Positions 49,067 to 55,304 of a stretch of 64,000 nt of DNA are shown piece after piece. Source of the stretch: Bacillota bacterium (lineage in GTDB: Bacteria > Bacillota > Negativicutes > Sporomusales > CTSoil-080); NCBI GenBank assembly GCA_017889625.1, contig JAGGAD010000010.1, positions 1 to 64,000 on the forward strand, written 5' to 3'. Each line of letters begins with the position of its first letter. The first letter of the stretch is position 1. Position numbers and translations under genes: made by a program. The notes under the pieces are model-generated. The model searched no databases. It had not been told where the DNA came from and saw nothing but the letters and a program-made list of their open reading frames with translations.

Positions 49067-49297
49067 ATTTGTGTTAAATATTAAAATACACACACTTGAT
49101 TTTTCTAGCTCCAAACCTTACGGGATTCATTATTTAAGAATGAGATTAATTTATTACCAATGCTACAATAGCTAAACTACCAAACCTGCGCATTACCACA
49201 CTCAAATTAAGGGCGGTGGTGTAATACGCCGGAACATGTTCTGTAAATCTGGCATAAATATATAGTAAGGTATATTCCATAACGAGGAGGTTTGAAT

Positions 49298-49891
49298 ATG
49301 AATTCTGGCTTACATCACTATATCAACAGAGAATTTGCCAGGGAGCTTAAGGGACTTGCCGGGCGAAACATACTGCTTTTGCTTTTGGACGGTTCAGCAG
49401 TATTTGGCAGGTTGGGCGGTATTGATGAATGTGTTATAAGTGTTTTGCCGGCAGTAGGAATGACCGGGGTTACGGCAGTACGGTTTCGTCCTCCGAATCC
49501 TACTTTACCTGAATATGACATACTATTAAGTGAAGCGTTGATTGACCTATGTAACGTTACGGCAGTGATCGAAGGGCCGTTTATTGTTCCGCCAATTAGC
49601 AAGGCGTGTAGTTTAGCTAATAACCCCAATAATGCGCCTAAACAAATGATGAAACCTAAAACTCCCTATGTGCGCCAACAAAGCCACCTCTTAGAACAGC
49701 TAGATGAGTTTTGCGGACAAAATATTGGCGTATTGCTTATGGGCGGTTGGGTAATTGGCGGACAGTTAAGTGAAGTTGATGAATGTGTAATTTTATTTGG
49801 TCCGGCTACAACTACGGCTCCGTACATGATATGCATGGGCGCATTAAACGTATTTGGGCCGCCGTTTACCGGCGGGTATTCCTTAGTCTGA
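49298..49891 (+). CDS. Hypothetical protein with two Sm/DUF2642-like repeats
   Basis: Unrecognised 197-aa protein with an internal duplication. Residues about 20-52 (LAGRNILLLLLDGSAVFGRL then GGIDECVISVLPA) align with about 138-170 (FCGQNIGVLLMGGWVIGGQL then SEVDECVILFGPA); each copy is followed by a hydrophobic strand ending in GPPF or EGPF. The pattern G-x-N-[VI]-x-[VL]-x-x-x-DG-x(5)-G-x-L-x-x-[VI]-D-E is reminiscent of the Sm-like small beta-barrel, also seen in spore-coat DUF2642 proteins. That is a shape argument only. The ATG at 49298 has GAGGAGG 7 bases upstream. No secretion signal. Confidence 0.65.
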   Translation: MNSGLHHYINREFARELKGLAGRNILLLLLDGSAVFGRLGGIDECVISVLPAVGMTGVTAVRFRPPNPTLPEYDILLSEALIDLCNVTAVIEGPFIVPPISKACSLANNPNNAPKQMMKPKTPYVRQQSHLLEQLDEFCGQNIGVLLMGGWVIGGQLSEVDECVILFGPATTTAPYMICMGALNVFGPPFTGGYSLV

Positions 49892-50020: not shown

Positions 50021-50518
50021 ATGAAAGAATTAAGATTTGCTGTAGCATTAGAGGCCAGCATTCGTAAAGAATTGGAAGATATAAACCGCCAAGCACTACC
50101 GGAGCTATGTCCAGTGGTGCAAATCGTCAGTAAGTTTCAAGCTGAATTTGAACTATTATTAGATCGCGCCTGCAGCACTGACGTTGATCTCGGTAAATAC
50201 CCTGAAATTGATGCTGCGCTGCTTTTAGGCTCAGACCAGGATTGGCAGCAAGCGGTGAAAAATTTTTCTGATACCAATAATAAAGCGTTAGCTAATTTGA
50301 CGCTGTTATGGAGAGTGCTAGCGCTTATTGAAAACTCACAGCAGTACTATCAGCAGGCGGCGCTGAACTCACCCTATCCGTTAACTAAGCTGTTCTTGAG
50401 TTCGTTGACCCAAACTAAACTCATCCTCCGGCGGAGGTTGGACGGAGTCCTAAGAGCCATGTATAACGAAGTGTGGTCAAGTGTTGGCTTTGCCCCCTTC
50501 GTTTTTGGGAAAGATTGA
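50021..50518 (+). CDS. Hypothetical helical protein, 165 aa
   Basis: Unrecognised cytoplasmic protein predicted by eye to be almost entirely helical, with no membrane segment and few Gly residues. Segments such as LRFAVALEASIRKELEDINRQALP, ALANLTLLWRVLALIENSQQYYQQAAL and LTQTKLILRRRLDGVLRAMYNEVWSS suggest a helical bundle. It is preceded by GAGGAGG and followed by a terminator (50544). It lies between the duplicated-domain protein and the PglX-like methyltransferase; any link with them is only positional. Confidence 0.6.
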   Translation: MKELRFAVALEASIRKELEDINRQALPELCPVVQIVSKFQAEFELLLDRACSTDVDLGKYPEIDAALLLGSDQDWQQAVKNFSDTNNKALANLTLLWRVLALIENSQQYYQQAALNSPYPLTKLFLSSLTQTKLILRRRLDGVLRAMYNEVWSSVGFAPFVFGKD

Positions 50519-50543: not shown

Positions 50544-50573
50544 GGTCACTGGCGATATGCTGGTGGCCTTTTT
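50544..50573 (+). terminator. Intrinsic terminator
   Basis: GGTCAC pairs with GTGGCC (one G-T) around a 13-base loop, followed by TTTTT. Confidence 0.6.
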
Positions 50574-50711
50574 CTATCTAAACCAGATAGCTGGCTAGAG
50601 AGAAAAAATAAGTAGCGGGTATAGTTATATAAAAATAGAACAAAATATGGTAGGAATTTACAATTAATAAAACGAATAGTACCAACAGCGATAATAGCCA
50701 GGGGTGTGGTG

Positions 50712-53684
50712 ATGGATAGTTATAGCATAAAGCAAATTACTGAAGTAGCCGCTAAACTGCGAAAAACGCTGGATGGCCATTTTTTAGCTGACGGCGAGGG
50801 TAAGGCTTGGCAGTGGGCATTTAAACTCGGCCTAGACACAGCCATCAGGGTGCGCGGGCTGGAGTATGAACTGCCTGATTTTCTTCAACAAGCGATGGAG
50901 GCCGGGCCAATTGCTGAATCGGTACTTAATACTTGCCAAATGCTTTTTAGTGCCCCGGAAGTATTAAAAAGCTTTAGTTTACCTGATGCTCTGGGGTGGT
51001 TGTATCAGCATTGGTTTGACAATGACCGGAAGGCACTTACTGAAAAGCTTATTGCTGATCAAGGTGCCAAAATTTCTGTCAATGAAATTATTTTGGCTAC
51101 GCAAATATACACTGAACGGTACATGGCAGCATTCTTGGTAGAAAACTCACTAGGAGCATTGTGGCTAAGACTGCATCCGGAGACAAAGTTAACGGCCCAA
51201 TTGCAATATTATGTTCAACGTGTTCAAGAAGACACAATTTACCCCGGAAAGTCAGTCAGCAAAATTACCTTACTTGATCCAGCGTGTGGGTGCGGTAATT
51301 TTTTGCTAGTGGCGTTTGATTTACTATATGCGATGTATATCGAAGAAGGCGGCTTTAGTATTGAAGGCGCGTGCGCCTCAATTCTCAATAATAATTTATT
51401 TGGGGTTGACATTGATGGTGAGGCAGTAAAGGTATGCCGCGCGGTGCTGTGGCTTAAGGCCAAAGAACGAGCGCCAAGGCTTAGAACTGATATGCTGACA
51501 TCCTTTAGCAGTAATATTTTCGCTGTTGGTGAAATAAGCGTGCCCGGCGGATCGTATCTAGGTTCGTTGATAAAAGAAGGAAATACTTTTACCAAAAAAT
51601 ACGACATTGTGACCACCAATCCACCTTATGTTGATAAACGTGACTATGCTGGGCCGGTGAGAAACTATTTGCGGCGTTATTATAGAACCGGTGCGGGGAA
51701 TATCTATGCCGCATTTATTATCCGCTGTCAAGAATTAGCCAGATATTACGTAGCAATGATAACGCCGCAAACCTTCTTGTTTATTACTAGTTACAGCAAG
51801 CTTCGTCAGCAATTGTTTAACCAAAGCAGTATCCGAACCCTGGGCCATTTAGGGTTAGGCGCGTTTCATAATGCAGTTGTTGATACGGCAATGTTTGTTT
51901 TAGCGATAAATGAGTATAACCCAGGAGTATATTTTAGACTGGTTGATGTAATTGATAAACCTCAGGTATTACTTCAAGCGATAGCTAGACACAATAATGG
52001 TGAAACCACAGCGTTGGTGTTCGTGCGAACTTCCGGGGAAATAAGCGACTTGCCAGGCTCACAGGTAATCTATTGGCTTGGTGGCGGCATAATCAAATTA
52101 CTAAAAGAATCTAAGCAAATGAGCGATTATGCAGATGTAGTATTGGGAATGAAAACGTCAAATAACAAAAGGTTTCTCCGGTTTTGGTGGGAACTGCCGG
52201 AAGGTGAACGGCAGAATAATCAGGAATGGGTTCTCTATGAAAAAGAAGTAAGCGGTTATCGGTTTAAGCGAAATTCGTCGTACGTGCTGTTGTGGAATAA
52301 GTTTGCGCAAGACTATTATAAACAGCACTATTCGGCACAATTGCCTAACCCGAAATATTGGCTTAAGCCCGGGATTGTGTATGGTTTAATCAGTAGTAAG
52401 GCTTTTAGTGCCAAACTGCTTGAGCCTGGTCATATGACAGATATGGCAGCTAGCTGTATCTATCCGCATAATGAAGATAATACCGAGCTGATATTAAGTT
52501 TGTTAAATTCCAAAATATATCAATGGCTGTTAAAAGCGTTTAACCCAACGGTTAATTATCAGCCGGTTGATATAAAAAGACTGCCTGTTCCGGCGTTTGA
52601 TGATAGAGCTAGCCTGGTGCTAAAAAATCTGGCGGCGATTGCCGCTCAAACCGCAAATCGACTATATGAGATGGAAATAACTGATCGCGAAGCTAACTAT
52701 GTTATGGAAGATTTTTTCCCGCTTAGAGAAAAAATAGTGCAGCGGCAAATTAAGGTGTGGACGGCTGCGGTAAAATATATGTTGGCACGCGATGCCATTG
52801 ATATAGAATTGATTCGGCTATTAAAATTGCCGGAGACTGAAATTAAGAATATAACTGCCGAAATGGGGAATATACCTAGTAGATACTCGTTATTATTTGA
52901 GTATGACCTCGCTCAAAACAACCAAATAGCAAAAATAAAAGATCGGCTGAAAGAAATATATGAAGCCGGGCAAGATAAACCAATTGGCGGATTAATAGAA
53001 CTAATTGAACATATGACCCATAAATTAAAAGTGCACCCAATCAGTATCTATAAAATTATAAACAACGGTATTGTGCGCGATGGGTGGTGCTGTACAAGCT
53101 TTGAGAAAAATTTTGTTCAAGACGCTGTAAGCAAGATCGTATTAGCGGTAATGGCTACGCGAGAAGGAATACCCGTTACCGGTGGCTGCGGAGAAGAAAC
53201 ATTAAGCGAGTTGGTTCGTCAATATATCGGCGCAAGCTATGATATTGGAGCTGTTGAGGCTGAATTTAAGAAGTTAATGGGTATCTCGCTGGGGGGCTGG
53301 CTTGCTGACGGATTTTTTAAACGCCATATCCGTCAGTTTCGTAAACGTCCGCTGGTGTGGCAATTAAAAAGTCATTCCCCAAACGGTATACCGGCTTTTT
53401 CCGGTTTTATTCATGCTTATACAGCGGAGTGTTTACCAATGATTCGGAGCTGGGTTAGTGAAGCGGTAAAAAGAAGTTCAACAGATGCAATTACTGGTGA
53501 ACTGCAAGACTTTACAGCTCGGTTAAACCTGATGAAAAGGGAAAGATTTAATCCTAAATATGGAGTCCGGTTAAATATTGCCCCGTTTGAACAAGCCGGA
53601 CTGCTTGCGGCACCGGTTCTTGGTAAAATAGATACAATACAAGCCCTTAAAGACTTTGAACAATGGAAAAACATGTTTAATTAG
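50712..53684 (+). CDS. Solitary PglX/Eco57I-type N6-adenine DNA methyltransferase
   Basis: Large SAM-dependent DNA methyltransferase, 990 aa. SAM motif I is LLDPACGCGNFLL (about 186-198) and the catalytic N6-adenine motif is NPPY in VTTNPPYVDKRDYAG (about 302-306). A target-recognition-like region follows (NPTVNYQPVDIKRLPVPAF, about 615-633). The C-terminal RHIRQFRKRPLVWQLKSHSPNGIPAFSGFIHAY strongly recalls BREX PglX proteins. No BREX partner (brxA, brxB, brxC, pglZ, brxL), nuclease or integrase lies in the window: guaB follows directly and unknown small genes precede. The ATG at 50712 has AGGGGTG 7 bases upstream. It could be an orphan epigenetic methyltransferase or a reduced defence system. 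Confidence 0.88.
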   Translation: MDSYSIKQITEVAAKLRKTLDGHFLADGEGKAWQWAFKLGLDTAIRVRGLEYELPDFLQQAMEAGPIAESVLNTCQMLFSAPEVLKSFSLPDALGWLYQHWFDNDRKALTEKLIADQGAKISVNEIILATQIYTERYMAAFLVENSLGALWLRLHPETKLTAQLQYYVQRVQEDTIYPGKSVSKITLLDPACGCGNFLLVAFDLLYAMYIEEGGFSIEGACASILNNNLFGVDIDGEAVKVCRAVLWLKAKERAPRLRTDMLTSFSSNIFAVGEISVPGGSYLGSLIKEGNTFTKKYDIVTTNPPYVDKRDYAGPVRNYLRRYYRTGAGNIYAAFIIRCQELARYYVAMITPQTFLFITSYSKLRQQLFNQSSIRTLGHLGLGAFHNAVVDTAMFVLAINEYNPGVYFRLVDVIDKPQVLLQAIARHNNGETTALVFVRTSGEISDLPGSQVIYWLGGGIIKLLKESKQMSDYADVVLGMKTSNNKRFLRFWWELPEGERQNNQEWVLYEKEVSGYRFKRNSSYVLLWNKFAQDYYKQHYSAQLPNPKYWLKPGIVYGLISSKAFSAKLLEPGHMTDMAASCIYPHNEDNTELILSLLNSKIYQWLLKAFNPTVNYQPVDIKRLPVPAFDDRASLVLKNLAAIAAQTANRLYEMEITDREANYVMEDFFPLREKIVQRQIKVWTAAVKYMLARDAIDIELIRLLKLPETEIKNITAEMGNIPSRYSLLFEYDLAQNNQIAKIKDRLKEIYEAGQDKPIGGLIELIEHMTHKLKVHPISIYKIINNGIVRDGWCCTSFEKNFVQDAVSKIVLAVMATREGIPVTGGCGEETLSELVRQYIGASYDIGAVEAEFKKLMGISLGGWLADGFFKRHIRQFRKRPLVWQLKSHSPNGIPAFSGFIHAYTAECLPMIRSWVSEAVKRSSTDAITGELQDFTARLNLMKRERFNPKYGVRLNIAPFEQAGLLAAPVLGKIDTIQALKDFEQWKNMFN

Positions 53685-53828: not shown

Positions 53829-55304
<1,476 letters not shown>

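Follow-up and report, generated by a model that had tools for sequence, protein, structure and literature searches.

A solitary PglX/BrxX-type adenine methyltransferase beside guaB in Negativicutes, probably domesticated from BREX

The window is the whole 64,000 nucleotide stretch of Bacillota DNA analysed here, and the methyltransferase gene with its domains and motifs, the hairpin, the 165-aa gene and guaB, all described below, lie on its plus strand. At 50712..53684 it carries a solitary PglX/BrxX-type N6-adenine DNA methyltransferase; enzymes of the PglX type normally work only within the BREX anti-phage system. The open reading frame spans 50706-53684, with upstream GTG codons at 50706 and 50709 that are not a conserved start; the ATG at 50712 is the start common to all orthologues, and the protein is therefore 990 aa, beginning where the original prediction had placed it. 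SAM-binding motif I (DPACGCGNF, 51276..51302), catalytic motif IV (NPPY, 51618..51629) and the C-terminal FFKRHIRQFRKRPLVWQL block (53313..53366), which is the equivalent of FYKDHxKxYxKRPIYWL in BREX PglX, had all been noticed in that prediction; they are kept in 7/7 orthologues, and none of the seven reading frames has an internal stop.

Membership of the PglX/BrxX family is seen in the ordered succession of SAM motif, NPPY, recognition domain and BrxX-like C-terminal domain. The PADLOC PglX model matches the protein with E=6e-114 (380 bits); the NCBIfam BREX_1_MTaseX model gives 402.6 bits, which is under its curated cut-off of 500, and the BREX-2 model just 28 bits against the 403 of BREX-1. 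The DISARM DrmMI model also matches, at 220 bits, under the 380 of PglX; no Drm partner is among the matches listed for the ten genes around the locus. Pfam matches are to Eco57I and TaqI_C, the latter at residues 513-628. The nearest solved structures by sequence are BrxX 8zek/9ewz (E 4e-49) and PglX 8c45 (5e-46). Structure prediction from the seven orthologues alone reached pLDDT 46 and was discarded; with BREX relatives added it reached 85.8, and this predicted model matches 8c45/9ewz best (E 4e-41, TM 0.62-0.71), the orphan methyltransferase CamA coming second at 1e-19.

The N-terminal domain (NTD, 50712..50990) is reduced to ~93 residues, which the model shows as helices throughout; it is followed by the methyltransferase domain (MTD, 50991..52076) with a reduced insert, the target recognition domain (TRD, residues ~476-640, 52137..52631, with the Pfam TaqI_C match and the highest conservation among orthologues), and the C-terminal domain (CTD, 52632..53681), which is without the BrxX-type metal-binding motif DxDxIIPIxD. 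Ahead of the LGWLYQ motif there are ~93 residues in the window protein versus ~200-228 in most of the full-length BREX PglX compared, the exceptions being G512 (188) and G122 (139, in a fragment that may be missing its start); the remaining BREX-type proteins with a shorter N-terminus are truncated or split sequences, or come from a genome in which no PglZ was detected. The segment from FGxDID to NPPY has 72-79 residues in the orthologues versus 96-198 in BREX-type PglX, and a small insert of 96-98 residues is also seen in some of the latter (G036, G456, G448). Of the BREX-type proteins compared, 15 have the metal motif, as against 0/7 orthologues; in its strict form it is also absent from the BREX-type proteins of G188 and G206. 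The full NTD, MTD insert and CTD metal motif that together mark a type I BrxX are accordingly not found in the window protein. The NTD, the insert at residues 390-500 and the CTD of BrxX are proposed, in the description given in PMC11842806, as possible contacts to other BREX proteins; judged from the alignments, three parts tied, or proposed as tied, to the work of the BREX complex are reduced or missing in the orphan clade.

The methyltransferase gene lies between recG and guaB (IMP dehydrogenase, 53850..55304). In all seven orthologues recG is upstream and guaB is the next conserved gene downstream, in agreement with the remark of the original prediction that guaB follows. A 165-aa protein to which no function is assigned is encoded at 50021..50518, and a terminator-like hairpin with a T-run (50544..50578, a consensus match only) separates its gene from that of the methyltransferase; no Rfam RNA family was found in the region. 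The 165-aa gene also stands beside recG and guaB in families without the methyltransferase, and in G005 it is followed by guaB after 170 bp with no methyltransferase between; the neighbouring genes are therefore considered older than, and not dependent on, the methyltransferase. In other carriers unrelated genes stand between the 165-aa gene and the methyltransferase. A minimal defence system formed with the small genes had been suggested; the methyltransferase-free families, the intervening genes and the hairpin speak against it, and the small neighbouring genes are rejected as partners. Two reading frames of the recG-guaB interval, 49292-49891 and 50021-50518, have no Pfam, PADLOC or NCBIfam match; the 199-aa protein of this interval seems, by eye, to be built of two related halves, and the 165-aa protein occurs in 19/28 genomes of the order.

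The original prediction described the gene as lacking BREX partners nearby, and the scan of ten genes around the locus finds neither a BREX gene nor a nuclease gene. BrxA, BrxB and BrxL do not adjoin the methyltransferase, whose neighbours are Hsp33, RecG, small genes, GuaB, a deacetylase and a penicillin-binding protein (PBP); no defence gene besides the methyltransferase is seen in the ten genes, recG matching some helicase models as expected. The genome-wide search for PglZ and BrxC that had been proposed as a check finds neither in the window's own genome (98% complete, 113 contigs). PglZ (PF08665) is present in 0/7 carriers (the own genome and six with an orthologue), as is the BrxC/PglY ATPase (BrxC = PF25796); the BREX control genomes G025, G027 and G036 are positive for PglZ, and 3/3 control genomes are positive for the ATPase. 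PglZ is present in 23/27 genomes with other PglX-like matches. No cognate endonuclease was found in the window or at the orthologue loci examined, which is one property of an orphan methyltransferase, and the Pfam scan reveals no fused nuclease domain of the type IIG kind, the N-terminal region being short and helical.

Orthologues are found in G001 and G002 (family f1) and in G004, G011, G014 and G016 (family f3), which with the window gene makes seven. A tree of RecG and GuaB groups all seven carriers in a single clade (SH-aLRT 99); 18 other genomes of the order do not have the gene. G018 and G020 (f3, 87% complete) lack the gene and also lack recG and guaB matches, as gaps in the assemblies, rather than gene loss, would produce. 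Profile searches across the class (381 genomes) and the phylum (399 genomes) return no further orthologue, the next-best match scoring 293 bits versus at least 1600 for the orthologues; a profile scan of genome contigs recovers four orthologues and no carrier beyond this group, and a single-sequence scan recovers none. One locus, one clade and 18 genomes without the gene probably reflect a single acquisition followed by vertical descent; conservation at species level or above with vertical inheritance is a further property of orphan methyltransferases. The methyltransferase gene diverges faster than the genes beside it: identity within f1 is 51-53% for the methyltransferase, 77-82% for RecG and 88-90% for GuaB. 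A phage origin was considered and rejected, as matches in phage records are 21-33% identical, none covers 80% of the query and none is an orthologue; a viral origin was likewise rejected, as most matches on viral contigs sit in BREX-like clusters (judged by ORF sizes) and again none is an orthologue.

In the PglX tree the seven proteins form one clade (support 100) inside the PglX assemblage and apart from the CamA-like proteins. Its sister is the PglX of G598 (support 83-97); the G598 locus shows BREX-operon-like ORF sizes and a PglZ match. The stem branch of the orphan clade is long (1.41), and the deep forks of the tree are weak. In the tree rooted with CamA-like outgroups, one outgroup row is misplaced (L012, on a very long branch) and three empty rows were omitted; this tree is used solely for the placement of the PglX clade against the four good outgroup rows.

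The gene is under purifying selection, as judged from substitution rates, and is not a decaying remnant: dN/dS within f3 is 0.24-0.30 over the whole gene at unsaturated dS (0.5-0.8). The TRD has the lowest dN/dS of the four domains, 0.12-0.21, in 6/6 f3 pairs. Mean identity between the two families is 29 for the NTD, 49 for the MTD, 57 for the TRD and 29 for the CTD; the corresponding means for BREX-type PglX pairs at 50-60% MTD identity are 49, 55, 34 and 56. BREX genus-mates are 88-98% identical in the MTD, yet just 26-44% in the TRD. With the main domain boundaries, every one of the 21 orphan pairs has a ratio of TRD to MTD identity of 1.02-1.35, although these pairs are drawn from just seven sequences and are not independent; in BREX pairs the ratio averages 0.69 and reaches at least 1 in 6/178. 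Over five boundary sets the mean ratio is 1.06-1.16 for the orphans versus 0.56-0.74 for BREX, and in the two narrowest sets the lowest orphan pair falls to 0.97 and 0.91. According to PMC11842806, BrxX varies most in its recognition domain, and its NTD and CTD are conserved within type I. By these identities the conservation profile is inverted, the TRD being the most variable part in BREX PglX and the most conserved in the orphans in nearly every comparison; the simplest reading of such a profile would be that the DNA target is fixed and the constraint on partner interfaces relaxed.

The gene is probably a BREX methyltransferase that has been domesticated into a stand-alone methylase of fixed specificity, which likely acts as an epigenetic regulator analogous to CamA. 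It is hypothesized that a PglX/BrxX methyltransferase was captured once from a BREX-like system, next to guaB, in the ancestor shared by two related families in one order of the class Negativicutes, and then descended vertically as a stand-alone enzyme. The enzyme would bind SAM, its recognition domain would read one fixed and probably non-palindromic site, and an adenine would be flipped out and methylated at N6 without any other BREX protein; the 6mA mark would probably serve as an epigenetic signal on host genes, as with the orphan CamA in C. difficile. The almost unchanged DNA-reading part suggests that the protein now marks the cell's own DNA at one fixed sequence rather than fighting phages. 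The original prediction had offered domestication as one possibility, and it is this part that gains from the vertical inheritance, the purifying selection, the inverted TRD conservation and the reduced BREX-interface parts. What chiefly stands against this reading is that E. coli BrxX, in the description of PMC11842806, is inactive as a methylase alone and needs BrxB, BrxC and BrxZ, so that catalysis by the orphan protein alone is an extrapolation; the counterweight is the PglX of Streptomyces coelicolor (Pgl, BREX type 2), which is active alone in vitro according to the summary in a review (PMC12707154). The target motif and the regulatory role of the methyltransferase are likewise conjectural.

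Four other readings have to be weighed against domestication. The long stem branch, the weak deep forks and the support of 83-97 for the G598 sister would suit a stand-alone methyltransferase lineage sister to BREX PglX, whose reduced architecture could be ancestral (the Thermotogota pair described below is similar) and whose mode of action could equal that of the domesticated enzyme; because the base of the tree lacks resolution, an origin older than BREX is conceivable. The C-terminal block and the fold matching BrxX are nevertheless retained, and the outgroup-rooted tree, with its one misplaced outgroup row and weak base, puts BREX PglX on several sides of the clade, so that this origin is considered unlikely, though a serious contender. 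The BREX remnant named in the original prediction would be a drifting leftover of a lost locus: kinship with BREX PglX is clear, and the NTD and CTD are weakly conserved, but seven intact orthologues are kept at one locus across two families, under purifying selection and with PglZ and BrxC in 0/7, which makes decay scarcely credible.

The remaining two readings concern what the protein does. As a member of a defence protein family it could belong to a stand-alone or two-part defence, in which it marks self or senses unmarked DNA while an unlinked nuclease or effector attacks the unmarked DNA; dependence on a cognate nuclease could hold the site fixed. Against this, no nuclease or helicase partner is found in the window or at the orthologue loci examined, recG aside, the gene occupies one locus in all carriers, neither patchy nor in a defence island, and its recognition domain does not diversify as that of BREX does; a defence role is therefore held to be improbable. 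A sequence-specific DNA binder, with methylation lost or weak and acting as a regulator or roadblock, would account for the recognition domain being the most conserved part, and BrxX alone is described in PMC11842806 as binding its site without methylating it. The retention of the SAM motif and NPPY in 7/7 is not required of a pure binder; this is not decisive, as BREX sensing uses SAM, but it leaves such a binder a quite doubtful proposition.

The closest comparison is with the type I BREX BrxX/PglX (E. coli HS 9ewz; Salmonella 8c45), with which the window protein shares domain order, catalytic motifs, overall fold (TM 0.62-0.71, predicted model) and the C-terminal RPxxW block; however, its NTD has ~93 rather than ~210 residues, its MTD insert is reduced, DxDxIIPIxD is missing, neither BrxC nor PglZ accompanies it in the genome, and its TRD is conserved, not variable. 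CamA, the orphan adenine methyltransferase of C. difficile (PDB 7lni), is also solitary and chromosomally fixed with no nuclease partner, and conserved specificity residues are described for it (PMC8187626); it differs in being 577 aa without the BrxX-type C-terminal domain and in belonging to a separate branch, CamA-like proteins falling outside the PglX clade. Spo0A is found in all six near-complete carriers, and a sporulation role like that of CamA is therefore possible by analogy. The S. coelicolor PglX likewise lacks the flanking subdomains of BrxX, as the review summarizes it (PMC12707154), but belongs to a Pgl/BREX-2 locus, and the window protein scores 28 bits with BREX-2 versus 403 with BREX-1. 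Type IIG/IIL restriction-methyltransferases such as MmeI have related methyltransferase and recognition domains; in the window protein no nuclease domain is found, and ~93 helical residues stand ahead of the methyltransferase domain. In the accessible text of openly licensed papers retrieved by a search for PglX without BREX, a solitary PglX passed on vertically is nowhere described. Orphan methylases, CamA among them, are already known; the window protein is a solitary one that descends from BREX PglX or has it as its nearest kin.

It can be proposed tentatively, as somewhat likelier wrong than right, that BREX methyltransferases were exapted more than once into partner-free epigenetic enzymes of fixed specificity, the window clade being the clearest case; the Thermotogota pair L079/L080 and the solitary PglX of G067 are possible further candidates. 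If repeated exaptation is true, methylation by BrxX would owe its dependence on BrxB, BrxC and BrxZ to the NTD, insert and metal site. A partner-free natural relative with reduced or lost segments hints at which segments impose the partner dependence of E. coli BrxX, and a frozen versus diversifying recognition domain is a simple sequence signature separating domesticated from defence methyltransferases.

The Thermotogota pair (L079:991-3960 and L080:60-3029) are near-identical 989-aa PglX-like proteins from metagenome-assembled genomes with a similarly short NTD and insert; their neighbours are PadR and MFS genes, and a sugar ABC transporter with a LacI gene, and the short contigs carry no BREX gene. 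The PglX of G067 (Negativicutes, L053:448-3666) is a 1073-aa protein without the strict metal motif, encoded beside a tRNA-synthetase-like gene in a genome with no PglZ detected, and is possibly a solitary copy or a remnant. In the BREX locus of G027 (L040:7566-11221) the PglX frame starts late and is preceded by a 131-aa ORF, as if the NTD had been split off. Several contigs catalogued as viral (L167-L172 and L175) carry what resemble BREX operons by ORF sizes, with PglX-like proteins of 1084-1164 aa. The genome of the window (G000) also encodes, on contig C98 (L038:7337-9298, minus strand), a second solitary-looking adenine methyltransferase of 653 aa; among solved structures CamA is its closest relative (E 2e-40, over the methyltransferase domain alone). 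Most genomes of the order contain similar matches, although PMC8187626 describes CamA as rarely found outside C. difficile.
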